From IMG/VR virus record IMGVR_UViG_3300026094_000018, positions 1 to 33,533 of that record: a DNA stretch of 33,533 nucleotides. One strand, written 5' to 3'. This DNA comes from a virus. Position 1 is the stretch's first letter, and each line of letters opens with the position of its first letter. Of the stretch, positions 15,782 through 32,145 are shown piece after piece. The translations under genes and the position numbers were made by a program. The notes under the pieces are model-generated. The model did not search any database. It was given only the letters and a program-made list of their open reading frames with translations, and was not told the DNA's origin.

Positions 15782-16579
15782 TCATTGCGTGATTCGGGTT
15801 AAAATGTAATCACGATTTTTGGTGAATCGGGGCAAATCACGGCGAACCGCATAATGGCTTCGTGTGACTTTGCCGTTTCGGCTTTTGATATGACCCTCTG
15901 CGATCAACTCTTCAAGTTTGGATTCTTGTGTGATCACTTCACCGATTGTGGCTTCATATGTTTCACGCTCCACAAGAAATCCACGTTTCCGCTGTGGAGA
16001 TCCACTGTTTGGGTTTTTGCCAAGTTCTTGGTAGATGATTTCTTGACGTTCATTGATTGATTTTTTGTGGAGTCGTCTTTGGGCTTTCTTTCTCCCGTGA
16101 CGTTCCTTGAGACCATAATAAGCCATAGACGACACGTAATTTTTGAACGCATCTTCTTGTCTCCATATAAAGTAGTTGACAACCTCGTTGGGGGGCAACA
16201 CGAAACAACGCCCATCAAAAACGGCAGTTAGTCCGGTCTCCCGTGAGAACGCAACTGACGCAGTGGATGCAAGCAAACTAACGAGTTTCTGAACTCGGTT
16301 GCCAAGAAACGGCGTTTGGTTTTCACTCTTGTCATTCCGAAGCAGCAATGAAATTTCGTCGCTTTGGGAATATGCAAATTCGGCGTTGCAGTATTTCAAA
16401 ACCGCCACACACGTTTCTTCCATTGCCGATTCAAATTCAGAATCAAACGGCTTCTTAAAATTTTGATTCGTTAGATTTGAAAAACTGTTCCCGTCCAAAC
16501 GCACGAGCACCGGGTGCAAAGGCGGCAATTTGCTTCTGAACGCTCTCTCGTGTTTCTTCATCCGGGTTGATAAATTCAT
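15782..16579 (-). CDS. Thg1-like 3'-5' RNA polymerase (tRNA-His guanylyltransferase superfamily)
   Basis: 265 residues. Thg1 enzymes add nucleotides to tRNA 5' ends in reverse (3'-5') polarity. Family motifs: LSTRMKKHE near the start (as in LGDRMKxYE), VRLDGNSFSNLT with metal ligand D29, SQSDEISLLL with D74, and RQEDAFKN at ~150. The eukaryotic HINNLYN motif is absent, as in bacterial and phage Thg1-like proteins, which mainly repair truncated or mispaired tRNA 5' ends. The C-terminal part (SGSPQRKRGFLVERETYE) also fits. I chose ATG 16579 because it places the motifs at family positions; this forces a 125-nt overlap with the upstream nucleotidyltransferase. The phage's own tRNA-His already encodes G-1, so repair or editing is the likelier task. 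Confidence 0.9.
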   Translation of the reverse strand: MNLSTRMKKHERAFRSKLPPLHPVLVRLDGNSFSNLTNQNFKKPFDSEFESAMEETCVAVLKYCNAEFAYSQSDEISLLLRNDKSENQTPFLGNRVQKLVSLLASTASVAFSRETGLTAVFDGRCFVLPPNEVVNYFIWRQEDAFKNYVSSMAYYGLKERHGRKKAQRRLHKKSINERQEIIYQELGKNPNSGSPQRKRGFLVERETYEATIGEVITQESKLEELIAEGHIKSRNGKVTRSHYAVRRDLPRFTKNRDYILTRITQ

Positions 16580-17213
16580 CTTGGTTTGTTGGTTTCTGAA
16601 AATGAGCACGGTTGCGATGCATTGTCAAGGTTTGGAATGCCCGTTGCACGCTCACGTTGTCAAGCACATGATCTGCGAGCACCCCCATCGCAAATGCAGT
16701 GTCCGGATCAATCTTGAAATCAAACCGGTTCGCAAACCGTGCAGCACGAACGATCCGCAGATAATCTTGCTTGAACCGATCCATCGGATCCCCAACCGAA
16801 CGGATGATCCCTACGTCAAGATCATCAAGACCACCAAAGGGATCAACAATGTTTCCATCCACATCCATTGCAAGCGCATTGATCGTGAAATCCCGACGAT
16901 TTAGATCGTCGTGAATGTTTTCGGCAAACACAACATCAGCGTGACGACCATCCGTTGTCACATCTTTCCGAAAGGTGGTGATGTCAAAATCGTCATCACC
17001 AATCCGAGCGACCACCGTTCCGTGGTCAATCCCAACGGTGGTGAAATCAATACCACGATCCGTCAGCTTTTGGCACACCACGTCCGGAGTGTCTGACGTG
17101 GTGAAATCAATATCATCGTAATCATGTCCGTAAACGTGATCTCGGACGGCACCACCGACCGCATGAAGGTCGGTGAGGAAGTCAAACTTGGAAAGTGCGT
17201 CGGAAAGCGTCAT
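16455..17213 (-). CDS. CCA-adding enzyme/poly(A) polymerase-type nucleotidyltransferase, head and neck only
   Basis: 252 residues from ATG 17213; longer in-frame extensions cross the terminator and were rejected. All head motifs are present: AVGGAVRDHVYG, the metal motif YDDIDFTT, then DLNRRDFTINALAMD (residues ~98-112), DPFGGLDDLDVGIIRSVGDP and RFKQDYLRIVRAARFA. Bacterial CCA enzymes are ~370-410 aa; here the body and tail are missing and the C-terminus (FAPGARAFGREQFF) runs into the Thg1-like gene. Class II head motifs suggest CTP/ATP addition to tRNA 3' ends; most tRNA genes here lack an encoded CCA. Whether this short form is active, or is truncated by frameshift, is open. GC content appears higher than in its neighbours. 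Confidence 0.9.
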   Translation of the reverse strand: MTLSDALSKFDFLTDLHAVGGAVRDHVYGHDYDDIDFTTSDTPDVVCQKLTDRGIDFTTVGIDHGTVVARIGDDDFDITTFRKDVTTDGRHADVVFAENIHDDLNRRDFTINALAMDVDGNIVDPFGGLDDLDVGIIRSVGDPMDRFKQDYLRIVRAARFANRFDFKIDPDTAFAMGVLADHVLDNVSVQRAFQTLTMHRNRAHFQKPTNQDEFINPDEETRESVQKQIAAFAPGARAFGREQFFKSNESKF

Positions 17214-17257
17214 GGGTTGAACCGTTGAATGATAGAACGTCGTTTCGTGTTTGGCGA

Positions 17258-17298
17258 CAAAAATAAAAAAAGAGTTGGGGGACAATGTTGTCCCCCAA
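17258..17298 (-). terminator. intrinsic terminator
   Basis: On the minus strand a perfect 10-bp stem (TTGGGGGACA with its complement, arms 17289-17298 and 17275-17284, 4-nt loop) is followed by CTCTTTTTTTATTTTTG. It sits between the stop of the 191-aa gene and the start of the CCA-type gene, so it ends the upstream transcript and the RNA-end-enzyme genes need their own promoter or readthrough. Confidence 0.92.
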
Positions 17299-17305
17299 GA
17301 GAATT

Positions 17306-17881
17306 TCAAACCACGTGGTAGATTTCCCCCCCAACGCGGATTTCGCGGATACGATCCAACCGAATGTCTCGGAGGATCACTGGGGTTTCCACGTTTTGGC
17401 GACCGGAACTTTGGCTGTTATTATACATGAAGTCACGCAGAGAATCCAATCGCTCCCCTTGAATCTCTTGAGAACGTTGTGTGTCCACGTAGAACGTTTC
17501 CAATGCTTGTTCTACCTTAACTTCCAGGTAGAACCGTTCGCGGTCGCTGTGCTTTGGTGTATGACGCACAAGAGGCGCATCATCCATCCGAACACCCCAA
17601 CGGCGCGGTTCGGGTTCAAATGGTTCGTGGTCCGGTCCTTGTTCTCGTTCACGCTGGTTGTTGACCGAGTTACCGTATCGGAAGTTGATTATTCCGGAAA
17701 CCCGGCTCGTCTTCTCAACAATGGGATCTCCGTCTTCAGTGTGGAATTCGTTGTATGGAGTCCCACGACCATTCACCGTTTTCCGCATCCGTGGAGTCGT
17801 GGTGTATGTCACACTCACGAATTGAGCACGAGTTGGGAGATTGATCAAAATGTCTCGGAGTTGCTGTTGGGTAACAAGCAT
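17306..17881 (-). CDS. conserved phage protein of unknown function
   Basis: 191 residues. The pattern matches a widespread uncharacterised phage family as I recall it: an N-terminal helix (LRDILINLPTRAQFVSVTY), TTPRMRKTVNGRGTPY, SGIINFRYGNSVNNQR, PRRWGVRMDDAPLVRH, then a helical segment, and a final strand pair (LDRIREIRVGGEIYHVV). The family has no assigned function; the basic/aromatic composition would suit nucleic-acid binding. The intrinsic terminator 7 nt past its stop makes it the end of a transcript. Confidence 0.82.
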   Translation of the reverse strand: MLVTQQQLRDILINLPTRAQFVSVTYTTTPRMRKTVNGRGTPYNEFHTEDGDPIVEKTSRVSGIINFRYGNSVNNQREREQGPDHEPFEPEPRRWGVRMDDAPLVRHTPKHSDRERFYLEVKVEQALETFYVDTQRSQEIQGERLDSLRDFMYNNSQSSGRQNVETPVILRDIRLDRIREIRVGGEIYHVV

Positions 17882-17970
17882 CGTGCGCTGTGTTTTGTCA
17901 AGGGGTTTCCGTTGTGCTGCATTTTGGTCAATGCACCATCACAAGCACGGTTCCACCTTCACACAAACTT

Positions 17971-18002
17971 GAAAATCCCCCATAACCCGAAAGCCGTGGG
18001 GG
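17971..18002 (-). terminator. probable weak intrinsic terminator
   Basis: On the minus strand a 6-bp stem (CCCCCA/TGGGGG, arms 17997-18002 and 17977-17982) with a 14-nt loop is followed by ATTTTC, 9 nt after the stop of the 63-residue gene. The remainder of the 130-nt gap to 17881 shows no gene. Confidence 0.5.
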
Positions 18003-18010
18003 GTTTGATG

Positions 18011-18202
18011 TCATGAGCATTTCACAATGTCCGGACCATACGCCGGTTTGATCTCTTTGAATTCAACATGCCGCCCGTTCTCATCTTTGGCAAGAACGCC
18101 GCTTGGAATGATCTCTACCACAGTGTAAATGTCGTTTGAAAACGGATCCTCAAAAAACCGATCTCCGACGGCAAGTTGAAATACGGATGTATACTCGGTC
18201 AT
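18011..18202 (-). CDS. small hypothetical protein
   Basis: 63 residues from ATG 18202 (MTEYTSVFQLAVGDRF). An AAGGA 8 nt upstream favours this start over ATG 18208. The protein is a short beta-rich unit (DRFFEDPFSNDIYTVVEIIPSG; VLAKDENGRHVEFKEI), like small SH3-type or Tudor-like barrels found in many phages, though no family is certain. Confidence 0.75.
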   Translation of the reverse strand: MTEYTSVFQLAVGDRFFEDPFSNDIYTVVEIIPSGVLAKDENGRHVEFKEIKPAYGPDIVKCS

Positions 18203-18247
18203 TGGCATGATCCTTGTTTTAGAATTTGGGCGATGCGTTATGCTCGT

Positions 18248-18298
18248 TCAAAGGGAATCATACAGATCACAGAACTGATGAGCATCGTTGGGATTCAT
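18248..18298 (-). other. possible 16-codon leader peptide with good ribosome binding site
   Basis: ATG at 18298 is preceded by AGGA with 7-nt spacing and encodes MNPNDAHQFCDLYDSL before TGA. It is in the same frame as the 63-residue gene that follows, so it is either a leader peptide or a truncated N-terminus. The stretch 18209-18401 otherwise holds nothing I can name. Confidence 0.35.
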
Positions 18299-18401
18299 GT
18301 GTTTTCCTGTTAGTGAAAGATGATGCGCTTGGTATTGCACAAACCAACCAACACACGGTTCTATGTTTCGTGTGGATGTGTATATTGGATTTGATGTGAA
18401 G

Positions 18402-18476
18402 CACACCCGGCAGGACTTGAACCTGCAAATCGTCGCATTAGAAGTGCGATGCCTTATCCATTTTGGCTACGGGTGC
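18402..18476 (-). tRNA. tRNA-Arg (TCT)
   Basis: Full cloverleaf on the minus strand: acceptor GCACCCG/CGGGTGT (first pair G1-U72), anticodon stem TCGCA/TGCGA with loop CTTCTAA (anticodon TCT), T arm GCAGG-TTCAAGT-CCTGC. Discriminator G. No encoded CCA (next bases are CTT). Reads AGA and probably AGG. Confidence 0.93.
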
Positions 18477-18486
18477 GTGGATGTTT

Positions 18487-18651
18487 TTATCTCCAAATCC
18501 ACCAAACAACGGCAATGTAAAAAAGCACAAACAACCATTGTCCGGACACGACAAACCACACCAAAAGGCCAATGAAAACAACAACATTGACGGTTTGATG
18601 GTCCAAGATGCGGTCAATCAGTTTTGCAATCACAATTTCCCACTTTTTCAT
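18487..18651 (-). CDS. small membrane protein
   Basis: 54 residues from ATG 18651 (MKKWEIVIAKLIDRILD). Two membrane helices cover residues ~20-37 (TVNVVVFIGLLVWFVVSG) and 38-53 (FVLFYIAVVWW). The frame is open upstream but that part overlaps another, better-looking broken gene. Function unknown. It ends just before tRNA-Arg. Confidence 0.7.
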   Translation of the reverse strand: MKKWEIVIAKLIDRILDHQTVNVVVFIGLLVWFVVSGQWLFVLFYIAVVWWIWR

Positions 18652-18817
18652 TGTCTTGAATTTCTTTGAGGCACATGAGCGCTTCTTGAATTCCCACACG
18701 ACGCCCTTTCTGCTCTCTGACCCAAGATGACAGTTTCCCATCATCACCGTGTTCAGAAATCCATGCTGTGAGTTCGTTGTGTCACTGTTCAAGACGTTTC
18801 TTTAATTTTTGGATCAT
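18614..18817 (-). pseudogene. small soluble phage protein interrupted by TGA at codon 12
   Basis: ATG 18817 opens a 67-codon frame (MIQKLKKRLEQ, then TGA at 18782-18784, then HNELTAWISEHGDDGKLSS and WVREQKGRRVGIQEALMCL) ending TGA at 18614. The downstream part reads like a genuine helical phage protein and has no start codon of its own. Trp (TGG to TGA) or Arg (CGA to TGA) would be the simplest ancestral residue. Its 3' end overlaps the 54-residue membrane protein by 38 nt. Confidence 0.6.
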
Positions 18818-18841
18818 AGATATGCTTTTGTATTTTGAGTA

Positions 18842-18955
18842 TCACACAAGCCAACGTGCGGCGTCTTCGCCGCTTTCTGTGAGCACGTGGCGTTGATTTG
18901 ATTCATTGAATGTCACAACACAAACGCAGTTCCCAATCGGAATGTGAAGGATCAA
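18842..18955 (-). CDS. possible 37-residue protein with TTG start
   Basis: The frame begins at TTG 18955, whose bases overlap the TGA of the upstream gene as TTGA, and runs to TGA 18842. The sequence (HIPIGNCVCVVTFNES, then HVLTESGEDAARWLV) has a strand-helix appearance. The same overlap style is seen at 12926 and 26006. A short perfect repeat (GGCGTC/GACGCC) inside it could instead be part of an RNA hairpin. Confidence 0.35.
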   Translation of the reverse strand: MILHIPIGNCVCVVTFNESNQRHVLTESGEDAARWLV

Positions 18956-19173
18956 GAAAACTGATCAGCCCATTCCGTCAAGGCACGTCCAATCTCTGCA
19001 TCTGACGTGGTTTGTGATCCGTTGACCACAAATGTGTGGGCATTTTTGATTTCAAGGATCACGTTACCCTGCGGAGATTTGAATTGCATGGGAAAGATGT
19101 TCCATTGCATATCGTCCACATTTAGTTCAACGTTTTCAAGTTTGATGTTGGATCCGTCTCCAAATTCGTTCAT
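18952..19173 (-). CDS. small hypothetical protein
   Basis: 73 residues with ATG start: an N-terminal strand region (NIKLENVELNVDDMQWNIF), a middle strand (NVILEIKNAHTFVVNG) and a C-terminal helix (DAEIGRALTEWADQF). No family recognised. ATG overlaps the stop of a possible upstream mini-gene as ATGA. Confidence 0.7.
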   Translation of the reverse strand: MNEFGDGSNIKLENVELNVDDMQWNIFPMQFKSPQGNVILEIKNAHTFVVNGSQTTSDAEIGRALTEWADQFS

Positions 19174-19289
19174 GGGTGATGGAATATTGATTGGCGTGTA
19201 TGGGATGGTGTGTCGTTTTCATACATCGGACTGCCCGTTTTCTGGGCACGAACTGCAAGACCATGAAACGGCTTCAACGTCGGCTTCAT
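19170..19289 (-). CDS. possible 39-residue protein in a 216-nt gap
   Basis: ATG 19289 (MKPTLKPFHGLAV) to TGA 19170, whose stop overlaps the next ATG as ATGA. Basic, Pro/His-rich. A rival frame over the same DNA ends in SWSCSSCPENGQSDV, resembling half a zinc ribbon, so which frame is used is uncertain. The remainder of the gap up to 19389 is AT-rich with a (GT)n-like run. Confidence 0.3.
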   Translation of the reverse strand: MKPTLKPFHGLAVRAQKTGSPMYENDTPSHTRQSIFHHP

Positions 19290-19389
19290 GACCTTGGTTT
19301 TGCGCCCGGCTTTTATTGCAATACACACCGTGTTTTTTGTTTGTGTGTGTGTTTTTAATTAAATGATATTGGAAAAAGTATATACTCTG

Positions 19390-19463
19390 TTGGCCCGGTG
19401 GGGCTTGAACCCACAACCCTGGTCTTATGAGGACCCCGCTCTGACCAATTGAGCTACGGGCCA
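19390..19463 (-). tRNA. tRNA with CAT anticodon (Met, or Ile2 if lysidine-modified)
   Basis: Minus-strand cloverleaf: acceptor TGGCCCG/CGGGCCA, D arm GCTC...GAGC, anticodon stem GGGTC/GACCA (27-43 mismatch) with loop CTCATAA, T arm GTGGG-TTCAAGC-CCCAC. Discriminator A. No encoded CCA. The sequence does not tell elongator Met from Ile(CAT); it lacks initiator features. Confidence 0.92.
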
Positions 19464-19482
19464 ATGTTTGATATGATGCGAA

Positions 19483-19746
19483 TCAAAGTTCCACATCATC
19501 CAAATCCCCGATCAACTTTTCTTTGACGGCTTGTGCAATGATTTTACGTCCCTCTCCGTTGTACTTGAAGAATCGTTCAATCTCTTTTTGGATCACTTGC
19601 TTCACGTTTTTCGGACGCGTTGCTTTTTCAATGGCTTCTTGAATCCAAACATCTCGCTCCGCTTCCGTCAGCGCTGTGACAATGTTGTATCGCATTCCTT
19701 CAACGCGAAGTTCAACGGTTGTGTTTTTTGGATGATAACTGTTCAT
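19483..19746 (-). CDS. hypothetical helical protein
   Basis: 87 residues, ATG start. A strand region (TTVELRVEGMRYNIV) is followed by helices (LTEAERDVWIQEAIEKATRP and VKQVIQKEIERFFKY), with basic patches and an acidic end (IGDLDDVEL). No family known. It directly precedes tRNA(CAT). Confidence 0.75.
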   Translation of the reverse strand: MNSYHPKNTTVELRVEGMRYNIVTALTEAERDVWIQEAIEKATRPKNVKQVIQKEIERFFKYNGEGRKIIAQAVKEKLIGDLDDVEL

Positions 19747-19756
19747 TTTGAGTTTT

Positions 19757-19930
19757 TCAATTTATGATGTGAAGGTCGCACAAACGATGAATACCACCGT
19801 CTGCAAGCAAAACCATGAAGTCTTTTTGCTCCGGATCATCCGATGGTTTGACTTCTTGAACGGTTTCCACGTGATCTCCCCACGTGGAAGCTTTTCTCCC
19901 AACTAAACGATGCTGTGTTGTCCACTCCAT
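19757..19930 (-). CDS. small hypothetical protein
   Basis: 57 residues from ATG 19930 (MEWTTQHRLVGRKAST); the frame also opens with TTG at 19999, which would add 23 residues (EPGHACVIQSDP...). The C-terminus (DFMVLLADGGIHRLCDLHI) reads as two strands. Neither start has a strong ribosome binding site. Function unknown. The 101 nt between 19999 and the Asn tRNA contain only an 8-bp inverted repeat (TTGAAATG/CATTTCAA). Confidence 0.6.
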   Translation of the reverse strand: MEWTTQHRLVGRKASTWGDHVETVQEVKPSDDPEQKDFMVLLADGGIHRLCDLHIIN

Positions 19931-20100
19931 TTCTTTGTTGTGGATTGTTGTTTGTCGTTGTGGATCACTTTGAATGACACAGGCATGGCCGGGTTCCAAC
20001 TACTGCAACAACTTCATTGGGGCTTCAAATTGAAATGACAGAGACGTGACCTATAAAAATGACACCACTGCCATTTCAAGTTTCGTTAGACAAAGCTTTT

Positions 20101-20177
20101 TGGCTCCGGGGGCAGGACTTGAACCTGCATCTTTCTCCTTAACAGGGAGGCGTCTTGCCAATTGAGACCACCCCGGA
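20101..20177 (-). tRNA. tRNA-Asn (GTT)
   Basis: Minus strand: acceptor TCCGGGG/CCCCGGA, anticodon loop CTGTTAA (GTT) on stem CCTCC/GGAGA (27-43 C-A mismatch), T arm GCAGG-TTCAAGT-CCTGC, discriminator G followed by an encoded CCA (20101-20103). Confidence 0.93.
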
Positions 20178-20184
20178 ATTCTTT

Positions 20185-20247
20185 CCACAGAACCTTTTCA
20201 CAGTTCTGTGGCCGCCGATATGCGGGCGATGCTCGGTTGCAGCCGAG
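20185..20247. other. three-hairpin spacer between tRNA-Asn and tRNA-His
   Basis: The 165-nt gap 20178-20342 has no convincing gene. It contains three consecutive inverted repeats: 5 bp (CTCGG/CCGAG, 20232-20247), 4 bp (CGCC/GGCG, 20213-20228) and a perfect 9 bp (CCACAGAAC/GTTCTGTGG, 20185-20211). No T-run follows, so a simple terminator is unlikely. Could be a processing signal or a small structured RNA. Confidence 0.5.
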
Positions 20248-20342
20248 TTGGTTTTTGAAATGCCATGCGCTGCAACATATTACGTCGTGCCTGGATTGTG
20301 GCTCATTTCAATCTGAATTTGAATTTGAGAGAAACAAAAAGG

Positions 20343-20421
20343 TGGGGTGGGCACCCGGATTTGAACCGGGGTTTACGGGATCACAACCCGGCGCTTTAAA
20401 CCTGACTAAGCTATGCCCACC
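20343..20421 (-). tRNA. tRNA-His (GTG) with encoded G-1 and CCA
   Basis: Minus strand: acceptor GTGGGCA/TGCCCAC plus G at -1 (20421) opposite discriminator C73, then CCA (20343-20345). Anticodon loop TTGTGAT gives GTG; T arm CCCGG-TTCAAAT-CCGGG. Because G-1 is encoded, the classical Thg1 reaction is not needed for this tRNA. Confidence 0.93.
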
Positions 20422-20434
20422 ATGTGTGTTGATG

Positions 20435-20507
20435 ATCTCCATATCGGATTTGAACCGATAACCTCCGAATTACAAAATCGGTGCTCTGCCAATTGAGCTA
20501 ATGGAGA
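20435..20507 (-). tRNA. tRNA-Thr (TGT)
   Basis: Minus strand: acceptor TCTCCAT/ATGGAGA, D arm GCTC...GAGC, anticodon loop TTTGTAA (TGT) on CCGAT/TTCGG (31-39 T-T mismatch), T arm ATCGG-TTCAAAT-CCGAT. The discriminator is U and CCA is not encoded. Confidence 0.92.
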
Positions 20508-20511
20508 GTTT

Positions 20512-20698
20512 TCATGGCATATATTCCACTTTTAAGTTTGTGTTCCCACAGCACCACGATTTGCAGTAGTCTTGTCCCTTCTCAGCTCTCTTCAACAAGC
20601 ACTGCGACTTGGTTTGGGTCAAAAGATTCGTTCATGGTTATGCATCCATTTAGAGTTTGCGTCTTGTGGATGCACCACACATACCGTGTTGATGCCAT
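20512..20698 (-). pseudogene. Cys-rich small protein gene with apparent frameshift
   Basis: ATG 20698 begins MASTRYVWCIHKTQTLNG, continuing CITMNESFDPNQVAVLVEE, and stops at TGA 20582-20584. In the next frame the coding pattern resumes at once (AEKGQDYCKSWCCGNTNLK, then VEYMP, TGA 20512). Loss of one GA from a GAGAGAG run at about 20585-20600 would explain it. Intact, it would be ~62 residues with four or more cysteines, possibly metal-binding. No family recognised. Confidence 0.5.
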
Positions 20699-20713
20699 GT
20701 TGTTTCGCCAGTT

Positions 20714-21018
20714 TCAATCAAAATCATCAAAGTGAATTTGAGATTCAAGATCAAGAAGCGTCTCAATCTTGTCTCGTCCGTTGGTAGCATGTACACTGAC
20801 AACCGGCAACTCGTGTTCTTTGATGAAATCGTGAACTTCTTGAAGGTGATCACGCAATGTCACAACACACAACCCGCTACGTCAAGCGTTCTCAGACGCT
20901 TGAGAAAAGTCTCATTTGGACGAACGAATGGTCTTCAATAGTCACGCTCGTGCATTATAACGCTGCTCTCTCTGACGGGTTCTGTGAGCGTTTCGTCAAA
21001 GTTAAAGGTCACGGTCAT
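20714..21018 (-). pseudogene. HAD-like phosphatase gene, broken by TGA and a frameshift
   Basis: ATG 21018 begins MTVTFNFDETLTEPVRE; FNFDETL corresponds to HAD motif I (DxDxT), with the nucleophile Asp changed to Asn. TGA interrupts codon 28 (20935-20937, after HERDY); the frame goes on RPFVRPNETFLKRLRTLDVAGC and then needs a 1-nt shift near 20862-20875 (a missing G in a GT-rich run) to continue VVTLRDHLQEVHDF (motif II) and HATNGRDKIETLL, ending HFDDFD (motif IV-like) at TGA 20714. The order of HAD motifs supports one ancestral gene now dead, or a misassembled read. Confidence 0.65.
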
Positions 21019-21023
21019 GGTCT

Positions 21024-21068
21024 CAATAAAAAGAAGGGGCGGTGTGCCTGGAATTGAACACACCGCCC
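21024..21068 (-). terminator. intrinsic terminator after hsp20
   Basis: Minus-strand perfect 10-bp stem (GGGCGGTGTG with its complement, arms 21059-21068 and 21037-21046) followed by CTTCTTTTTATTG, 25 nt past the hsp20 stop. The loop includes TTCAATTCC, which resembles a tRNA T loop, but no tRNA can be built around it. Confidence 0.92.
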
Positions 21069-21093
21069 GATTTTGATTTACACCCCCATTTCA

Positions 21094-21588
21094 TCATTCA
21101 ATATCAATCTTTCGTGATGAAACGGATGTTTTGGGCAATTCAAGAGTCAAAACACCGTTTTCAAGATGCGCACTGATTTCATCTTGATCAACGCCATCCG
21201 GAACGGTGAATGTGAACTGATTTTTGGTTTGGCGACGGAAATGGACCGTCTCTCCATCTTGGGGTTCTGATTCTTGATCACATGAAATTGTGATCAATCC
21301 ACTTGGAGAAATTGAAATGTCAATGTTCTCCTTGTCAACACCAGGAACATCAACCCGATATTCCCAGTGATCCGGATACTCACTCAATCCATGATAACGC
21401 TTAGAATTGAGTTGAACGTCATCGGGCCAAATATCATTAAACACATCTCTCAATGTGAATGAAAATGGTGAATATGAAGAAATTTCAGTTCTTGGAATCA
21501 TCCGTTTTCTACTGGATTGCATATGCATGCTTTTTGTCTTTGGGTTCTTTTCAAGCGTGCTGTTCACCTTGAACAGACACATGGACAT
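21094..21588 (-). CDS. hsp20: small heat-shock protein (Hsp20/alpha-crystallin family)
   Basis: 164 residues from ATG 21588; internal ATGs at 21528 and 21501 would give 144 or 135 residues, and MIPRTEISSYSPF at 21501 looks like a family N-terminus, so the start is uncertain. The alpha-crystallin domain covers about residues 65-160: DHWEYRVDVPGVDKENIDIS, SGLITISCDQ, then the diagnostic LENGVLTLELPK. The C-terminus ends in an I-x-I motif (KIDIE). Hsp20 genes are typical of T4-like cyanophages; the protein is thought to aid virion or scaffold folding. It is the last gene of its transcript. Confidence 0.93.
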   Translation of the reverse strand: MSMCLFKVNSTLEKNPKTKSMHMQSSRKRMIPRTEISSYSPFSFTLRDVFNDIWPDDVQLNSKRYHGLSEYPDHWEYRVDVPGVDKENIDISISPSGLITISCDQESEPQDGETVHFRRQTKNQFTFTVPDGVDQDEISAHLENGVLTLELPKTSVSSRKIDIE

Positions 21589-21600
21589 ACATCACAAATT

Positions 21601-21669
21601 CGGTGCAGTAGATGAGCACCGGGCAAACAAGCCGTTTGCCAATGGCCTCCGTGGTATGATGCACCACGG
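21601..21669. other. three tandem hairpins upstream of hsp20
   Basis: Three adjoining perfect inverted repeats: CGGTGC/GCACCG (21601-21621), GGCAAAC/GTTTGCC (21622-21640) and CCGTGGT/ACCACGG (21649-21669), with loops of 9, 5 and 7 nt. They lie between the stop of a GC-rich small gene and the hsp20 start, in the 5' leader of hsp20. No T-run follows. This suggests a structured leader or small RNA rather than a terminator. Confidence 0.6.
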
Positions 21670-21683
21670 AAGATTTCGTTGTT

Positions 21684-21887
21684 CTACTTACTCCAGCGCT
21701 TCTGCGTGAAACGCAACACCTGCTTGACGTTGCGGTCGTGCTCCCGGTGGGACCAGGAGCTTCTGTTGCTTCCCGAGTTATCGGGGCGGCTACGCACATT
21801 CCAACGGCGCTTGGTGTTGCGAGCGCACTGCAGAATGGTAAAGGCAACCGACTTCTTGTTGTCCGAGGCAATTCGGTTGATCTGCAT
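21684..21887 (-). CDS. small basic protein, GC-rich coding sequence
   Basis: 67 residues from ATG 21887 (MQINRIASDNKKSVAF) to TAG. Strongly basic and Trp/Arg-rich (NTKRRWNVRSRPDN; FTQKRWSK), so nucleic-acid binding is plausible. Nearly every codon ends in C or G, unlike neighbouring genes, which suggests recent acquisition. No ribosome binding site is obvious and no family is recognised, so the call is moderate. A plus-strand frame through the same DNA looks less like a protein. Confidence 0.5.
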   Translation of the reverse strand: MQINRIASDNKKSVAFTILQCARNTKRRWNVRSRPDNSGSNRSSWSHREHDRNVKQVLRFTQKRWSK

Positions 21888-21991
21888 GATCAAATTTGTT
21901 GGAATGAGGAAGGAGATTGCTTTCCTTGCTTCATTTGCTACAACACACCAATTTATGTATGGTTCCCGACCATTTCAAGTTCACATGTCTT

Positions 21992-23070: not shown

Positions 23071-23075
23071 ATGTG

Positions 23076-26006: not shown

Positions 26007-26506
26007 GAATAATCGGTGTCCATCATGTACACGCCCGCATCAAACCATGCAAATTGCTGTTGTACATAGTTGCACACTTTCCGAAATGCATCCATGTCTA
26101 AACGGAATGGATTGGGCCGTCCATATTGAGTACCCCGATCTGTAGCATCAAACAGGAACGGAACAAATTGGCTCGTCATTTTAATGCCCACGATTCCTTC
26201 AGTGTTTTTGTTGTCATCGCACAACGGAAAGTCAGACGACACATGAGCACGCACAACGAGTTCAACTGTTTTGTCGGTGTAATCATACCCAATGGGTTCG
26301 TATTCCCGCTCTCCAATCAACGCAAAGGGCACTCGGAGCGAGCAAATAACACCTGACCCCTGTGATTCATCGTCGGCAGCCAGCGCATTCAGAATTTCTT
26401 GATCGCCCATATCACCCCACGTTTCTTGATCCAAGTGTCGTGCTAATTCCACAACATCTTGATTGTCGGAAACGCGTTGGCCGATGTAAATATCTCCACT
26501 TGTCAT
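26003..26506 (-). CDS. hypothetical protein
   Basis: 167 residues from ATG 26506 (MTSGDIYIGQRVSDNQ), 19 nt past the upstream stop; the frame is open further upstream into the CYTH gene. It has a helical N-terminal region (VELARHLDQETWGDMGDQEI), beta strands (VICSLRVPFALIGEREYEPIG), and an aromatic C-terminal helix (MDAFRKVCNYVQQQFAWF). No motif recognised. Its TGA is shared with a TTG start. Confidence 0.75.
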   Translation of the reverse strand: MTSGDIYIGQRVSDNQDVVELARHLDQETWGDMGDQEILNALAADDESQGSGVICSLRVPFALIGEREYEPIGYDYTDKTVELVVRAHVSSDFPLCDDNKNTEGIVGIKMTSQFVPFLFDATDRGTQYGRPNPFRLDMDAFRKVCNYVQQQFAWFDAGVYMMDTDYS

Positions 26507-26525
26507 GATATAACGTGTGTTTGTT

Positions 26526-26978
26526 TCAGTTTGAAAGGTTGCGATTGTAAAATGATGGATTCCCGGTGACCTCAACCAAATATGAATCGCTGGTCAAAAC
26601 CCACTCGGTTTCACCCGTGTCATTGGACTCTGCTTCCATGAGAACAAGACCTGGCAACAACCCGGTCTCAAAAACGTCAACGGTAACATCAAGGGATGGT
26701 TCCGATTCAAGCGTGTATCGTGTTTTCTTCACACTGGACCGCGCCAACGATTTCAAGCGATCAAACCACGTTTTTGAAATCGTCCATTCAAATTCAAATC
26801 GGCGTTGTTTGCTTCCACCGAGTTTGACGGAGACCGTGAAGTCTTTTTTGCTACACGTGCGGACTTCAAAGAATGGAAGGGTTGAAAGATAATGATGATT
26901 TATGTTCACGCAATCAACAATGTCATCACGCGTTTCATCAAATGTTCTCAGTACAAATTTCCGTTCGTTTTCAACCAT
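26526..26978 (-). CDS. CYTH-domain (triphosphate tunnel) phosphohydrolase
   Basis: 150 residues from ATG 26978, 1 nt overlapping the upstream stop. The signature ExExK is at residues 3-7 (ENERK), and the tunnel strands follow: DFTVSVKLGGSKQRRFEFEW, KTRYTL, VTVDVFETGLLPGLVLMEAE, then EVTGNPSFYNRNLS as in bacterial CYTH proteins. Members hydrolyse inorganic or organic triphosphates, thiamine triphosphate or RNA 5'-triphosphates with Mg2+/Mn2+. The phage substrate cannot be read from sequence; in this genome an RNA 5' end is a reasonable guess given the Thg1-like and ligase genes. Confidence 0.85.
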   Translation of the reverse strand: MVENERKFVLRTFDETRDDIVDCVNINHHYLSTLPFFEVRTCSKKDFTVSVKLGGSKQRRFEFEWTISKTWFDRLKSLARSSVKKTRYTLESEPSLDVTVDVFETGLLPGLVLMEAESNDTGETEWVLTSDSYLVEVTGNPSFYNRNLSN

Positions 26979-27298
26979 CACTTTTTTTCGGGTCCGGGAT
27001 TCTTGCTAATTCCTACCATCTCAAAGTGGTTGACGCGTTCAGTGCGTTGTATTCCGGTTATTTTCACACTCGCAAGTTCATCAAGAGACAATGTTTTTCT
27101 ATCAATCAAGCTGTTCCAAAATGAATCAACTGCTGTTCGCTTTTGTGATCCGGACTCGTCATCCAAATCGTCTTCCGGTACTTCAACAAATGTGCGATAT
27201 GTGATTTTTTTGTGTGTCTTGGATCCCGCAAAATCGGTCAGTAGCAGTTCTGCCGTGACTTCGTAGATGTAAGAAAAGTATTGTTCAGATTCACTCAT
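26978..27298 (-). CDS. hypothetical protein
   Basis: 106 residues, ATG overlapping the upstream TGA as ATGA. Strands in the N-terminal half (YFSYIYEVTAELLLTDF; ITYRTFVEVPEDD), an acidic linker and a C-terminal pair (LASVKITGIQRTERV; FEMVGISK). No recognised family. It overlaps the CYTH gene by 1 nt, so the two are probably co-translated. Confidence 0.75.
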   Translation of the reverse strand: MSESEQYFSYIYEVTAELLLTDFAGSKTHKKITYRTFVEVPEDDLDDESGSQKRTAVDSFWNSLIDRKTLSLDELASVKITGIQRTERVNHFEMVGISKNPGPEKK

Positions 27299-27594
27299 TC
27301 TATGTTGTGTTTTTTTTTTGGACTTTCAAGGGCTTCGGAATCTCCACGACTGCTCTTGCAAAGAGCATCCACCAATTCTGGTTCATCAATGACATCCGCA
27401 ACTTTCATTGCCGCGTGGTGGCGAAAAATTTGAGCAAATGGAAACTCTACAAGTCCTTTGATGATTTCAAGAAGTTGACGTTTGATGCTGTGCTCTGTGC
27501 TTGCTTGTGAGCGGATTGAATGTGCTGTCTGTGCATCACACCAAAAAATTGTTTTAATGGCGTGATGGGCTTCTCTCGGCGTTGAGAAGCCCAT
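27295..27594 (-). CDS. hypothetical helical protein with start codon inside a hairpin
   Basis: 99 residues. Helical throughout (STEHSIKRQLLEIIKGLV; MKVADVIDEPELVDALCK) and basic at the end (SPKKKHNIE). Unknown function. The proposed ATG 27594 lies in the 5' arm of a 12-bp perfect hairpin that includes codons 1-11, which would hinder initiation; the only downstream ATG is at codon 63. Confidence 0.65.
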   Translation of the reverse strand: MGFSTPREAHHAIKTIFWCDAQTAHSIRSQASTEHSIKRQLLEIIKGLVEFPFAQIFRHHAAMKVADVIDEPELVDALCKSSRGDSEALESPKKKHNIE

Positions 27595-27595
27595 C
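27564..27595. other. 12-bp perfect hairpin covering a start codon
   Basis: GATGGGCTTCTC (27564-27575) and GAGAAGCCCATC (27584-27595) with an 8-nt loop. In the minus-strand transcript the stem begins one base before the ATG of the 99-residue gene and is 11 nt downstream of the zinc-finger gene's stop. A T-run (ACAATTTTTT) occurs only ~13 nt further, so it may be a weak terminator as well. Confidence 0.7.
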
Positions 27596-27606
27596 GGGAA
27601 ACTTGA

Positions 27607-28053
27607 TCACGATGCATCAACCGTGTGATCACATTTGGGATATTGGGTACATCCCCAAAACGCGCCATATTGGGATGTTCGGCGGACCATTGGATTCCCA
27701 CAGCGGTCGCATGTGGGACCTGCAATATCTTGTTCCCAATTTTCAAGACGCTTTGAAAGGTTTTTCTTCCACGTCTTGATCCGATTCACACGTTGGCTAT
27801 GCCCACACAAAGTGATTTCACCGTCTGAGTTGCGATGGAAAAGTTCAACGCGAATCGCGTCGCTTCCTTTTTTGCGAATCTGTCCGTTTCGGGAATCAAT
27901 CGTGGTGTACACCCGAAGAGAAAGCGAACGACCAACCCGCTTTCCAAAAACACATTCTTTGACACCTTGCAATTCCAATTCTTGAAACCCCCTGGATTCC
28001 AAAAACTCAATGATGTTGAATTCAGACGGAGAAACAAAATTGCGCTGGCTCAT
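27607..28053 (-). CDS. protein with C-terminal topoisomerase-type zinc finger
   Basis: 148 residues from ATG 28053 (GAGAA 6 nt before); ATG 28059 is also possible. Residues ~113-146 form a four-cysteine zinc ribbon of the topoisomerase I type: CDRCGNPMVRRTSQYG, FWGCTQYPKC. The first 100 residues are an unfamiliar alpha/beta domain (FNIIEFLESRGFQELEL; SLSLRVYTTID) followed by a basic linker (RIKTWKKNLSKRLENW). The finger suggests DNA or RNA binding. No catalytic motif is seen. Confidence 0.85.
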   Translation of the reverse strand: MSQRNFVSPSEFNIIEFLESRGFQELELQGVKECVFGKRVGRSLSLRVYTTIDSRNGQIRKKGSDAIRVELFHRNSDGEITLCGHSQRVNRIKTWKKNLSKRLENWEQDIAGPTCDRCGNPMVRRTSQYGAFWGCTQYPKCDHTVDAS

Positions 28054-28156
28054 GATCATTTCTCATTTGTGATTCGTCGTTGGATCATAATCAACACGAC
28101 TCACATCACACTGTTCCGTGCTAAATGCTCTTTATCTCATTTTCAAAAACGTCATC

Positions 28157-28762
28157 CTATAGATTCGCGTCCGGTCTCACCACACCAAAAAATGTGAATT
28201 CACGGACCAATGAATGAATCAGCGTCCATACGTTGCATGTGCTGGACTGCTGAAGGGTGGGTTGATCTGAAAACCCATCTCTACGATCGTAAATCTTCAT
28301 TTCGGGTTTGAAATACACGGGATAATGCTTGAGATCGCAGATCGGGGTGTGTTCAAGACCGAACCCAGAATCGGGACCCAACCTTTTTGTGTTTCCGACA
28401 CCATACACCGACCACACATCCGATTTTGGAAAATCGTTGTGTTCTTCCACTTCAACAATGGGAGGTTCAATTTTAATTCGTTGCATTCCACACATATCGT
28501 GCATTGCAGAAGTCTCCAACACGTTTTTGAATTGGTCCAGCACCGAATCGCCGCAAATACCACTCAAACTTTCAGAAATGAGATCCGCATTTTTGTCAGT
28601 GACAATATGCTGAAGCAGCCGCCCAAACAGAATTCCGGATTCAATTTCAACGGGATTTCCATAATGATGAAACAGAGATCCGGTAAACGGTTTCCACACC
28701 CATTCCCCATGCCCCCAATCACGTTCCCAAATCCGAGATGATTTAAATACAAGTGTTTTCAT
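28157..28762 (-). CDS. hypothetical protein
   Basis: 201 residues, ATG start, unrecognised. Aromatic-rich N-terminus (RIWERDWGHGEWVWKPF), a helical segment (GILFGRLLQHIVTDKNADLI), then MCGMQRIKIEPPIVEVEEH and a C-terminal strand pair ending EFTFFGVVRPDANL. No membrane segment. It is preceded by a TATAATATACC stretch immediately before the ATG, too close to be an ordinary promoter. The 97-nt gap 28060-28156 downstream shows nothing. Confidence 0.75.
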   Translation of the reverse strand: MKTLVFKSSRIWERDWGHGEWVWKPFTGSLFHHYGNPVEIESGILFGRLLQHIVTDKNADLISESLSGICGDSVLDQFKNVLETSAMHDMCGMQRIKIEPPIVEVEEHNDFPKSDVWSVYGVGNTKRLGPDSGFGLEHTPICDLKHYPVYFKPEMKIYDRRDGFSDQPTLQQSSTCNVWTLIHSLVREFTFFGVVRPDANL

Positions 28763-28768
28763 GGTATA

Positions 28769-29221
28769 TTATACACTCAAGAATCTACGTGTGACATCAC
28801 CTTTAGGTGATTTATGAATTCCGGTTTCAACCCACTCGCTACGTTCAAAGAAGTTCCATGCTCCAAATGAAAACTCGGTTTGCATGCTGCTTGCATACAG
28901 TCCCGGAAACCCTTGAGATTGAAACCGCTTTGCAAACTCGGTATACATCAGCGTTCCAACCCCACGGCGTCGGTGGTCTTCTTCAACAAACGAATATTGG
29001 ACAAGAGGCTTTTCAATGTTGAAATCAAGGTGAGCTTGGTATTCCGCTTCGTAATTTTCATGCAGCTTTTCAACCAAAATTTCAACTTTCTTGCCAACAC
29101 CATGACCCTGTTTTGCTTCTCGGATCCATTGCTGCAATTCGGATGAAATCAATCGCAATTCCCCCATCAACCCATTTTTGGTATGCACGAGAAATTCCGC
29201 ATTTTCTTTTATACGCGACAT
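28769..29221 (-). CDS. GNAT-family acetyltransferase
   Basis: 150 residues from ATG 29221 (MSRIKENAEFLV). Motif A is clear: QYSFVEEDHRRRGVGTLMYTE, with the acetyl-CoA-binding (R/Q)xxGxG loop as RRRGVG at ~94-99, then the alpha helix AKRFQSQGFPGLYA; motif B follows (WNFFERSEWVETG). Substrate unknown. In phages GNATs modify host or virion proteins, or tRNA-like small molecules; nothing here decides. Confidence 0.87.
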   Translation of the reverse strand: MSRIKENAEFLVHTKNGLMGELRLISSELQQWIREAKQGHGVGKKVEILVEKLHENYEAEYQAHLDFNIEKPLVQYSFVEEDHRRRGVGTLMYTEFAKRFQSQGFPGLYASSMQTEFSFGAWNFFERSEWVETGIHKSPKGDVTRRFLSV

Positions 29222-29246
29222 ACTCAATCAATGACGGTTTCTGGAA

Positions 29247-29495
29247 TCAATTCATGTAACCGGCTTTGAGGTAACCGGCTTTGATTCCACACATATATGC
29301 ATTGGCAATATCCAACTGGAATCCCTGGTCTTGCATAATAGGATGTTCCACAGTTTGATGGAGCCGAAGTTGAAATTCGGCTCCATCTTTCAACGTGTGT
29401 TTGGAAATGTGTGTCGGCTCTGAATCAACAATCATTTGAAACACCAGCTTGTTTTTCGTTGTCGGATGACAGAAAACCAACAAGCGAAGTTTCAA
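29247..29495 (-). CDS. small hypothetical protein, TTG start
   Basis: 82 residues beginning MKLRLLVFCHPTTKNK if TTG 29495 is used; the only internal ATG in a reasonable place starts MIVDSEPTHISK. The central part is beta-like (GAEFQLRLHQTVEH). The C-terminus carries a near-perfect duplication, KAGYL-KAGYM, from two copies of a 15-nt unit (plus-strand GTAACCGGCTTTGA at ~29257-29284). Function unknown. Confidence 0.6.
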   Translation of the reverse strand: MKLRLLVFCHPTTKNKLVFQMIVDSEPTHISKHTLKDGAEFQLRLHQTVEHPIMQDQGFQLDIANAYMCGIKAGYLKAGYMN

Positions 29496-29512
29496 ATTTC
29501 AATGTGAAATTA

Positions 29513-29728
29513 TCATGAAGACCAATTGGGATCAACAAATGTTGTGTTGGATGGATGTGATCCCCGATAATCTTTGAATTGGTTATAGAAGCGATTGATC
29601 AATAGATTCATGCGGTCACCGGACGCGTCTCCAATTTCACGTTTCAGACGGTCAAACTCCCCGGCTCGTGATTCGGACAATAAATACCAATGTTCGGAAT
29701 CATCTTGTCTAAACGTAAATCGTGTTTA
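29513..29728 (-). pseudogene. frame-disrupted or oddly started small gene
   Basis: A good coding pattern runs to TGA 29513: RQDDSEHWYLLSESRAGEF, DRLKREIGDASGDRMN, FKDYRGSHPSNTTFVDP. It is in the same frame as, and continues past, the TAA of the upstream gene, but has no ATG in its first part. An ATG overlapping that TAA begins MNKHDLRLDK in another frame; a -1 shift after about 10 codons would join it to the long frame. So: frameshift mutation, programmed shift, sequence error, or a non-ATG start. Confidence 0.5.
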
Positions 29729-29953
29729 TTCATCTGCTGTTGCATCTGAACGGCGGCACAGGTTCTTGATGTGTTTTTTCTTCCAACCATTTTCAAACCA
29801 ATCTACGCGAATGACATCGTGGGGCTGAAAATCGGAAACCTCTTGAACGTGATCCTTCCAGAATTGGACCAGTGCTGCCGTTATTTCAAAGTCGTGGTTG
29901 TTGTACGGCGTTTGGACCCTAATAAGATATGGCGATGTTTCGTTTTGAGACAT
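29726..29953 (-). CDS. small hypothetical protein
   Basis: 75 residues from ATG 29953 (MSQNETSPYLIRVQTP); two upstream in-frame ATGs (29965, 29986) could add up to 11 residues. It reads as an alpha/beta unit: DFEITAALVQFWKDHVQ, then PHDVIRVDWFENGWKKK, with a basic C-terminus. No family recognised. It lies between tRNA-Ser and the disrupted gene. Confidence 0.68.
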   Translation of the reverse strand: MSQNETSPYLIRVQTPYNNHDFEITAALVQFWKDHVQEVSDFQPHDVIRVDWFENGWKKKHIKNLCRRSDATADE

Positions 29954-30016
29954 GGAAAAAAACATTTTTTGTTTGAATTTACACATGCATCATGGACCAT
30001 CCATATGCACATCTTG

Positions 30017-30104
30017 CGGAAGGAGGGGGAGTTGAACCCCCAAGGATCTACGAAATCTCGTCTGGTTTCAAATCAGATGCAGTCGCCAATCTGCTTGCCC
30101 TTCC
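30017..30104 (-). tRNA. tRNA-Ser (TGA)
   Basis: Minus strand, 88 nt with a long variable arm (class II): acceptor GGAAGGG/TCCTTCC (7-66 wobble), anticodon stem TCTGA/CCAGA (31-39 A-C mismatch) with loop TTTGAAA (TGA), T arm GGGGG-TTCAACT-CCCCC, discriminator G. CCA is not encoded (next bases CAA). Confidence 0.92.
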
Positions 30105-30145
30105 ATATGAACATGCAAAATTTGCATCATACCCGACCCGTGTTG

Positions 30146-31312
30146 TCAGTTGTATTCGGTGCCTCCTTTGCGGGTCAGATAATCATCAGACACACTTTTG
30201 AGTTGCACGCGTCCAAGAGAACGTTGGTGTCGTTCCACCTGTGGTCGCACAACAACCCCTTCCCGGATGTGAACGTCTTGACCCGTCAACGTTTCTGCTC
30301 CGTTTGTGTGCTTTTCAAGAATATCTTCGCTAAACGGCCCACGATAAAGAACGGGCACACGAGGAATATCCAACGAATCAAGAAGCGATTCAAGAACGAA
30401 GTCGTTGACAAAGTGGCCGGTTTGTGGATCTCCGATGAAAATGTCAAACGCACGAAATCCAATCTCATTGTTCTCTTCACCGTACCCCAAATCCTGAACC
30501 CGGTTTCCATACACTTCACCAAGAACATAGAAGTACCCGGCAATATCAGACAACTTGTCCATGATCCCATGTTCACGGGCTGCACGAACGTAAATGGAGT
30601 TTTCATTTGCATCATTCAATTGGAGTGCCTGTCCTTTGGATGCACGTCCCTTTGAAGTCACAATGAAACGCCCAGCGTCATCGTTGGACTGCTCACGAGG
30701 AACGACACCGATTTCACAAAAACTCCCATGCAACTTCTCTGTGATCACAACCGGTTCTCCTTCTTTCAGTGCATCGGGATACTTCTTGAAATTTTCAACA
30801 TCGTATGTCACAGTATGCCCACGCGCATTGAAAACTTCACCGCCCATGTGAGACGGAACCGTGGGTTCATACTTGGCGATTCCAAGCAAGTCTTTGACAT
30901 CTTTTCCGGTCGGTCGGATCCGGGGGCTGTCCTTGGGGCCAGCATATTGACCGCCAAAAACATGACGCTCGTCTTGAAGTTGGATGCTGTAGTTTCCAAC
31001 ATCACCATTTTCAGTTTCCACGGGATTCCATTCAACAGGATAAACCAATCCTTCAGTCACGACACCGCGAAAACAGCGAACCTTGACGCGGTCTCGGTTG
31101 CTTCCATCAAGTTTTCCAACGAGTCCCAGATTTTCAAGAACCCATTCTGGAACGATGCTGTCCACTGGGATGAATGCAACGAGATCACCCGTTTCATATT
31201 TTCCAATTGGAACGACGGTTTGAAACTTTCCAACCAACCCAATTTCAAGGTTGTCCGCATTCGGATGATTCTTGATTTCAATTTCTTTGATGGGTACTTC
31301 AAATTGTGACAT
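30146..31312 (-). CDS. RNA ligase, DRB0094/Rnl5-type
   Basis: 388 residues. ATP-dependent RNA ligases seal nicked RNA through a lysyl-AMP intermediate. N-terminal domain (1-150) fits the OB-type module of the Deinococcus DRB0094 family (IKNHPNADNLEIGLVG, ATG start). Nucleotidyltransferase motifs: I ITEKLHGSFCEIG with Lys193 (KLHG in place of KxDG), Ia FIVTSKGRASKG (~217-227), III YVLGEVYG (262-269), IIIa FRAFDIFIG, IV EGVVVRP (351-357), V LKSVSDDYL (371-379). Family members join 3'-OH to 5'-phosphate ends in duplex-like RNA and favour nicks opposite DNA. In the phage it could mend tRNAs cut by host anticodon nucleases, as T4 Rnl1 does. It follows tRNA-Leu and precedes tRNA-Ser. Confidence 0.9.
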   Translation of the reverse strand: MSQFEVPIKEIEIKNHPNADNLEIGLVGKFQTVVPIGKYETGDLVAFIPVDSIVPEWVLENLGLVGKLDGSNRDRVKVRCFRGVVTEGLVYPVEWNPVETENGDVGNYSIQLQDERHVFGGQYAGPKDSPRIRPTGKDVKDLLGIAKYEPTVPSHMGGEVFNARGHTVTYDVENFKKYPDALKEGEPVVITEKLHGSFCEIGVVPREQSNDDAGRFIVTSKGRASKGQALQLNDANENSIYVRAAREHGIMDKLSDIAGYFYVLGEVYGNRVQDLGYGEENNEIGFRAFDIFIGDPQTGHFVNDFVLESLLDSLDIPRVPVLYRGPFSEDILEKHTNGAETLTGQDVHIREGVVVRPQVERHQRSLGRVQLKSVSDDYLTRKGGTEYN

Positions 31313-31351
31313 AACGTGTCGTTGATGATTTTTTGTTGTGGATGGGGGAGA

Positions 31352-31558
31352 TCACCATTTGCGCTCAAACATGATGGTGTTGCACTTGGGACATCCGAGC
31401 AATGAAATTTCTCGTTTGTGGTGATCTGTATTCAAATCGCGGGTGTGAAAGTTTCCGGAAACGTGAACAAATTTTTCATCTCCGACGGATTCAACGTCTC
31501 CGTCATCAGTGAACTGTTTTCCTTGTTCATACCCACAAGAACTACAAGAACGTTTCAT
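31352..31558 (-). CDS. small zinc-ribbon protein
   Basis: 68 residues with two CxxC pairs, CSSCG (residues 5-8) and CPKC (56-59), bracketing an acidic/His-rich middle (VSGNFHTRDLNTDHHKRE). This is a treble-clef or ribbon-like zinc site. It may bind nucleic acid or a protein partner. ATG start; 39 nt upstream of the ligase gene, so probably in one transcript with it. Confidence 0.78.
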   Translation of the reverse strand: MKRSCSSCGYEQGKQFTDDGDVESVGDEKFVHVSGNFHTRDLNTDHHKREISLLGCPKCNTIMFERKW

Positions 31559-31582
31559 ATCACGTTACGTGTTTGTTGAATT

Positions 31583-31762
31583 TCAAGTATAGATCGGATC
31601 ATCACTGACAATCTTGTACGCCCATTTCTGAATGTCATCTAAGTCAATGCCTTCTTTCAAAACGACACTTCTAAGAATATGGTCAACGTCTTCAGTCCAA
31701 TAACATGGCTCATGGAATGTAGTTCCATCTTTCATGGTAACTTCAAGATTGATAAATGGCAT
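31583..31762 (-). CDS. 59-residue hypothetical protein
   Basis: ATG 31762 to TGA 31583, below the length at which such genes are usually listed. Sequence MPFINLEVTMKDGTTFHEPC, then WTEDVDHILRSVV and IDLDDIQKWAYKIV, reads as a strand-helix-helix unit. TTTTATAAA lies about 16 nt upstream of the start. It fits cleanly between two co-oriented genes. Function unknown. Confidence 0.7.
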   Translation of the reverse strand: MPFINLEVTMKDGTTFHEPCYWTEDVDHILRSVVLKEGIDLDDIQKWAYKIVSDDPIYT

Positions 31763-31816
31763 ATAGTTGCAAGCGGGGTTTATAAAAGGGTGAAATTTCA
31801 GTGGTGGTGAATTAAA

Positions 31817-31978
31817 TCACACATCATCAATCAAAGACGATTCAACCAACTCACCATCTTTCCAGACAAACTCCGGATCAGGTTCTTTCTCACCGTTCAT
31901 GATTTCTTTCATTTCATTAACGGATTCCAGCAAACGTTGAAACGTGGCGTCGTCCATGTGATCGTTTTCATGGTTCAT
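31817..31978 (-). CDS. small acidic protein
   Basis: 53 residues from ATG 31978 (MNHENDHMDDATFQRL), or 72 from ATG 32035 (MELLRCCLFPPITAK). The first reading is more natural: an acidic helix (FQRLLESVNEMKEIM) and a tail (FVWKDGELVESSLIDD). No family. It is just downstream of tRNA-Leu. Confidence 0.6.
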   Translation of the reverse strand: MNHENDHMDDATFQRLLESVNEMKEIMNGEKEPDPEFVWKDGELVESSLIDDV

Positions 31979-32056
31979 GAGATCAAGGTTTTTGGCTGTG
32001 ATTGGTGGAAACAAACAACAGCGCAGAAGTTCCATATCATCTTGAATTCAAAGTTG

Positions 32057-32145
32057 TGGAAATGGTGGGAATTGAACCCACACGGGCGTTGAAATTGCCA
32101 ACATGGCCCTCAACCATCCACGTCTGCCAGTTCCGCCACGCCCCC
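32057..32145 (-). tRNA. tRNA-Leu (GAG), wobble-rich acceptor stem
   Basis: Minus strand, class II with variable stem (GTTG/CAAC). Anticodon loop TTGAGGG (GAG) on an ATGG/CCAT stem, T arm GTGGG-TTCAATT-CCCAC. The acceptor pairs GGGGGCG with CATTTCC: G-U at 3, 4 and 5 and C-A at 6. Discriminator A, no CCA. The 3' strand looks like CGCCCCC after several transitions. Confidence 0.85.

Follow-up and report, generated by a model that had tools for sequence, protein, structure and literature searches.

An RNA-repair-type gene set in a 33.5-kb myovirus fragment, with a head-only CCA-enzyme remnant and a family-X-like nucleotidyltransferase

Several genes whose predicted products act on RNA ends lie among tRNA genes in the virus record IMGVR_UViG_3300026094_000018, which raises the question of whether they serve to repair tRNAs during infection and whether such a gene set is new. 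The stretch analysed here, hereafter the window, is the whole record of 33,533 bases. We consider it probable that the window carries part of the RNA-repair complement of a large phage, similar in kind to those reported from jumbo phages, which would act on tRNAs damaged in infection. The combination of a Thg1-like protein, a CCA-type enzyme and an RNA ligase recurs as a toolkit in large phages and has been reported before, and the part that may be new is a family-X-polymerase-like nucleotidyltransferase, not the toolkit as a whole. The four main genes are:

14289-15308, minus strand: family-X-polymerase-like nucleotidyltransferase of the MGGNALK family, 339 amino acids (aa), phrog_24943
15782-16579, minus strand: predicted 3'-5' polymerase of the Thg1-like protein (TLP) type, 265 aa, start codon ATG at 16579
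16455-17213, minus strand: remnant of a class II CCA-adding enzyme, reduced to the head, open reading frame (ORF) of 252 aa, homology over residues 1-196
30146-31312, minus strand: DRB0094-type ATP-dependent RNA ligase, 388 aa, N-terminal OB-fold domain, PF09414, PF21189, TIGR02306

The window is a 33.5-kb piece of a myovirus, with T4-like contractile-tail baseplate proteins filling its left third and eight tRNAs and the repair-type genes to the right of them, nearly all on the minus strand. A nucleotide search of the central 12 kb against named phages gave no near match; by protein, the closest known genome for all four main proteins is that of a huge phage, LR756508.1 (484 kb; L002 in our set), and for this reason we take the window to be, most likely, a piece of a large-phage genome. 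The Thg1, Pol-X, CCA-head and RNA-ligase proteins of LR756508.1 are 42-52% identical to those of the window. There the CCA, Pol-X and Thg1 genes are contiguous in that order, with the ligase also present, whereas the window runs from the CCA remnant through Thg1 and a 154-aa ORF (15313-15777, minus strand, no relative found) to Pol-X, and the CCA enzyme of LR756508 is complete (371 aa) while that of the window is reduced to its head. LR756508 also carries two TnpB/OrfB-like genes (IS605, Cas12f-like; 14364-15656 and 20289-21587) near its RNA ligase, and a tmRNA gene called by ARAGORN (32435-32878) about 2.2 kb after Thg1.

To place the gene set among other phages, whole records were searched for 20 named phages that had been picked because of a Thg1, ligase, CCA or Pol-X hit. 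Thg1 was present in 17, the CCA head domain PolyA_pol in 12 (a match that alone is no proof of a complete CCA enzyme) and the ligase in 17, with all three together in 9/20: Brevundimonas phage Domovoi, Caulobacter CcrPW, Xanthomonas XacN1, Bacillus G, Serratia BF, Agrobacterium Atu_ph07, Sinorhizobium phiM12, DSS3_MAL1 and Xanthomonas XaC1. The same three were found together in metagenomic or huge-phage records above 200 kb (G006, G007, G035 and LR756508). Thus the co-occurrence on which the earlier note had staked its proposal is borne out, while its statement that no described phage system combines a 3'-5' polymerase, a CCA enzyme and a ligase is not: Iyer et al. 2021 (PMC7824862, section 3.4.9) had described ATP-dependent RNA ligases, RlaP, CCA enzymes and, sporadically, Thg1 in jumbo phages and proposed an RNA-repair role that undoes host tRNA cleavage, and a 2018 report on XacN1 (PMC5852040) already placed Thg1 and a CCA enzyme among the tRNA-processing genes of that phage. 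We count PMC7162821, too, among the literature favouring RNA repair, and for Cas12a3, attack by the host on tRNA 3' tails has now been documented (PMC12851939). The window shares with the jumbo-phage complement (PMC7824862) an ATP-dependent RNA ligase, a Pol-beta nucleotidyltransferase, a CCA-type gene, Thg1 and phage tRNAs; it differs in that its Pol-beta member is the MGGNALK family-X-like protein instead of RlaP, its CCA member is truncated and no kinase-phosphatase was recognised in the fragment.

The Thg1 assignment is firm at the family level. The ORF matches PF04446 (E 2e-27) and PF14413 (5.7e-7) in Pfam and phrog_4717 (9.8e-54) in PHROG, and it is 52% identical to its LR756508 homologue, with D29 and D74 common to both. 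It thus has the Thg1 catalytic domain with the metal-binding aspartates, and the eukaryotic signature HINNLYN is absent from its translation, as the earlier note had read from the letters. Its best PDB match is a Thg1-like protein (4kgk, 2.6e-32), whereas chains named tRNA(His) guanylyltransferase match at only about 1e-13, which places it nearer to bacterial TLPs than to eukaryotic Thg1. Bacterial TLPs (4kgk; that of B. thuringiensis) have the same catalytic residues, size and both Thg1 domains; they differ in not being phage-encoded, and the activity of the window's protein is a prediction. The preferred reaction of TLPs is to rebuild tRNAs whose 5' end is truncated, templated by the opposite strand (PMC6471195). 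The tRNA genes of the window are:

18401-18476, minus strand: tRNA-Arg(tct), without encoded CCA
19389-19463, minus strand: tRNA-Met(cat), without encoded CCA
20101-20177, minus strand: tRNA-Asn(gtt), CCA encoded
20343-20421, minus strand: tRNA-His(gtg), with DNA-encoded G-1 (base 20421), C73 and CCA
20434-20507, minus strand: tRNA-Thr(tgt), without encoded CCA
22996-23070, minus strand: tRNA-Arg(acg), without encoded CCA
30016-30104, minus strand: tRNA-Ser(tga), without encoded CCA
32056-32145, minus strand: tRNA-Leu(gag), without encoded CCA, weak acceptor stem, 31.3 bits

ARAGORN and Rfam thus give eight tRNAs, all on the minus strand, with CCA encoded in two (Asn and His) and lacking in six, instead of the nine with seven lacking CCA counted at first; a ninth was not found even with relaxed thresholds in 18000-33533. 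Since G-1 is encoded in the DNA, the phage tRNA-His needs no G-1 addition, provided that RNase P keeps G-1 as in bacteria; G-1 addition to this tRNA is therefore an unlikely job for the Thg1-like protein, and 5'-end repair would suit it better. Acceptor positions 1-3 of the window's tRNAs hold no mismatches beyond G-U pairs, which leaves 5' editing of mismatched acceptor stems, and with it the editing part of the proposed toolkit, without support. In tRNA-Leu(gag) the acceptor stem contains, besides three G-U pairs, the only C.A mismatch in any acceptor stem of the window's tRNAs, and this tRNA may be degenerate. Identification of the Ser and Leu tRNAs as tRNA-Sec or tmRNA was rejected, the scores being weak and below gathering thresholds. 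Elsewhere, one fragment (L023) with a CCA-like gene and no Thg1 seen carries a tRNA-His (6726-6802) without encoded G-1 (an A precedes) and without CCA, and a 246-kb metagenomic phage record (L009) has a tRNA with anticodon cta (5969-6041), called Pyl, which is possibly an amber suppressor. Genes for an HSP20-like protein (21094-21588), an HNH endonuclease (24907-25428) and a GNAT-like acetyltransferase (28769-29227) stand among the tRNAs of the window.

For the 3' end the picture is different, because the CCA-type ORF is a catalytic head of about 196 residues and is not classed as a CCA-adding enzyme. It matches PF01743 (3.7e-28) in Pfam, and head motifs A-C (GGxxRD, DxD, RRD) are present with the catalytic DxD and RRD intact; this much of the CCA-type nucleotidyltransferase of the earlier note stands. 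The complete enzyme does not. Homology to the 371-aa LR756508 protein, which has a recognisable neck domain (PF12627), ends near residue 196; the NCBIfam CCA equivalog scores 166.6 bits against a cut-off of 290, with positions 26-200 of 396 covered; and a search of the whole window for the missing C-terminal half found nothing better than E 0.33. Seven relatives from phages and metagenomes have E/D-D-x-x-R at motif D and ER at motif E; the remnant has QDYLR and QR (VSVQR) there instead. Among the hallmarks of class II enzymes, the EDxxR form of motif D, the neck motif E, the tRNA-holding domains (neck, body and tail) and the curated score are therefore wanting, and the remnant probably cannot add CCA in the class II manner.

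Where the homology stops, about 50 bases ahead of the Thg1 start codon, the ORF reads on through roughly the first 41 codons of Thg1 (16455-16579) in another frame, which may represent an overprinted tail of the remnant within Thg1. There is in our judgement an even chance that the ORF is a dying gene or an assembly or rearrangement artefact without a product: the C-terminal half is missing, the glutamates of motifs D and E have become glutamine and the gene order is unlike that of LR756508. Against this, codon usage remains normal up to and into the overlap, where the CCA frame keeps a gene-like pattern (0.41 bits per codon across 40 codons) and only 3/357 comparable off-frame windows were open and scored as well, and the catalytic DxD and RRD motifs are preserved. 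The codon usage, noticed after the fact, weakly suggests that a 252-aa product with an overprinted tail may be made. A scan for a second contig with the same CCA/Thg1 junction found none, which says little, as near-identical records may be left out of the collection.

The RNA ligase, by comparison, is well supported. It matches PF09414 (6.6e-24) and PF21189 (3.2e-7) in Pfam, exceeds the curated cut-off of the DRB0094 equivalog TIGR02306 in NCBIfam (210.1 bits versus 151.15) and carries the motif EKLHGS, in agreement with the DRB0094-type identification made from the letters. It has the OB-fold N-terminus and nucleotidyltransferase domain of the Deinococcus DRB0094 family; it is longer than the profile (388 aa versus 341), with a divergent N-terminus. 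Ligases of this class join 5'-phosphate to 3'-hydroxyl ends (PMC7824862). A further gene, noted earlier as a CYTH phosphohydrolase, stays a candidate:

26526-26981, minus strand: CYTH-like (triphosphate tunnel) candidate, 151 aa, recognised by its ExExK motif (ENERK) only

Its N-terminal ENERK and other CYTH-like features speak for the assignment, while no Pfam match at 0.1 and no NCBIfam match was obtained, and its sole PHROG match, phrog_6660, has no named function.

From the gene families, their state of preservation and their co-occurrence in relatives, we infer the following course of events. Host tRNases would cut tRNAs in the course of infection; the DRB0094-type ligase would reseal breaks with 5'-phosphate and 3'-hydroxyl ends; the Thg1-like protein would copy the 3' strand to rebuild 5'-truncated ends; and missing nucleotides might be restored ahead of sealing by the family-X-like enzyme of the MGGNALK family, which would thus do here what RlaP does in other phages. 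As the CCA member is reduced to its head, 3'-end repair by this phage is doubtful, and the six CCA-less tRNAs most likely depend on the host CCA enzyme. End repair and sealing are thus the most reasonable reading of what the earlier note called repair or maturation of tRNAs during infection, one to which the co-occurrence elsewhere lends support, while the novelty that it attached to this reading falls away, the editing finds no support and the 3'-end repair becomes doubtful.

Several points weigh against repair of damaged tRNAs as the common purpose. In the window about 13 kb separate the ligase from the other repair genes, so that they do not form one operon; Thg1 is present in only 2/10 named MGGNALK carriers, and Thg1 and MGGNALK are therefore not an obligate pair; a kinase-phosphatase for 2',3'-cyclic-phosphate and 5'-OH ends was not recognised among the ORFs scanned, the genome being incomplete; and the co-occurrence is partly a genome-size effect, as large phages carry many translation genes. 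The genes could instead help to mature phage tRNAs (correction of 5' or 3' trimming faults, CCA addition) with no host attack involved, as the lack of CCA in 6/8 phage tRNAs, and likewise in the tRNAs seen in the CCA-gene relatives L002, L009 and L023, would suggest. We regard this as unlikely, given that the CCA gene of the window is truncated, that its tRNA-His calls for no G-1 addition, that intron-free tRNAs mature without a ligase and that host CCA enzymes are, to our knowledge, near universal.

In the repair reading the second Pol-beta protein has a proposed part, and its identity could be narrowed. The protein is Pol-beta-type, matching phrog_24943 (found in 27/27 family members scanned; PHROG label, DNA polymerase), and it is a family-X-polymerase-like member of an uncharacterised phage family rather than the known RNA-repair protein RlaP, an identity that we rejected since the window protein had no Pfam match at E 1 and a search for PF10127 (RlaP) gave 0 matches among 27 members. 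As single-protein scans of IMG/VR gave few relatives, alignments were used as queries instead. The N-terminal MGGNALK is invariant in the 27 aligned members, partly a selection effect in that the motif was one of two search patterns; most named-phage relatives obtained by plain tblastn begin at the same position as the MGGNALK start. D53, D55 and D99, the three catalytic carboxylates of family X, are invariant in the 27 aligned sequences, and the depositor's label on the DT01 homologue is NT_POLXc. In an AlphaFold2 model (pLDDT 94), residues 4-189 resemble the palm and thumb of DNA polymerases lambda and beta (Z 12.6, 171 residues, 2.8 Å; Foldseek 1e-6, profile 0.0015), whereas residues 190-338, beyond the span of this comparison, are helical. 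These polymerases share the palm-thumb fold and the three catalytic aspartates at about 13-16% identity; the MGGNALK motif and the C-terminal helical domain (190-338) set the phage enzyme apart from them.

By the same resemblance, the enzyme could be a family-X DNA polymerase that fills gaps together with a DNA ligase, in DNA repair unrelated to tRNA, as the PHROG label would also have it. Its neighbourhood points in another direction: MGGNALK genes recur near CCA, Thg1 and RNA-ligase genes, lying within 3 kb of one of them in 7/24 records (1.8 expected; 26/20,000 simulations) and within 6 kb in 10 records (3.3 expected at random), although part of the excess comes from the clustering of translation genes, and the records are not independent of one another. 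In phage DT01, cca directly follows the MGGNALK gene, and in Yut2 the gene comes after a tRNA cluster, near a polynucleotide kinase. An RNA ligase was above cut-off in 8/10 named MGGNALK carriers. Moreover, of 44 records, 12 had RlaP and 23 a member of the MGGNALK family, and none had both, which suggests a shared role; the sample is biased, its last seven records having been picked as MGGNALK carriers by tblastn, so this exclusion is a lead only. With these observations set against it, a role confined to DNA repair appears rather doubtful. We tentatively propose, as an idea itself doubtful at present, that the MGGNALK enzymes (phrog_24943) form an RNA-directed, hitherto undescribed branch of family X that replaces RlaP in many large phages, acting as a templated gap-filler that would restore lost tRNA nucleotides before RNA-ligase sealing, here beside Thg1-like 5' repair and a head-only CCA enzyme. 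A literature search of partial coverage found no paper in which a family-X DNA polymerase is connected with phage and RNA ligase.

Collectively, the toolkit as such is not to be pursued as new, and CCA genes on phage contigs, which can be head-only, are not to be counted as working CCA enzymes. The MGGNALK family offers a testable lead: a widespread phage nucleotidyltransferase labelled as a DNA polymerase may act in RNA repair as a substitute for RlaP.

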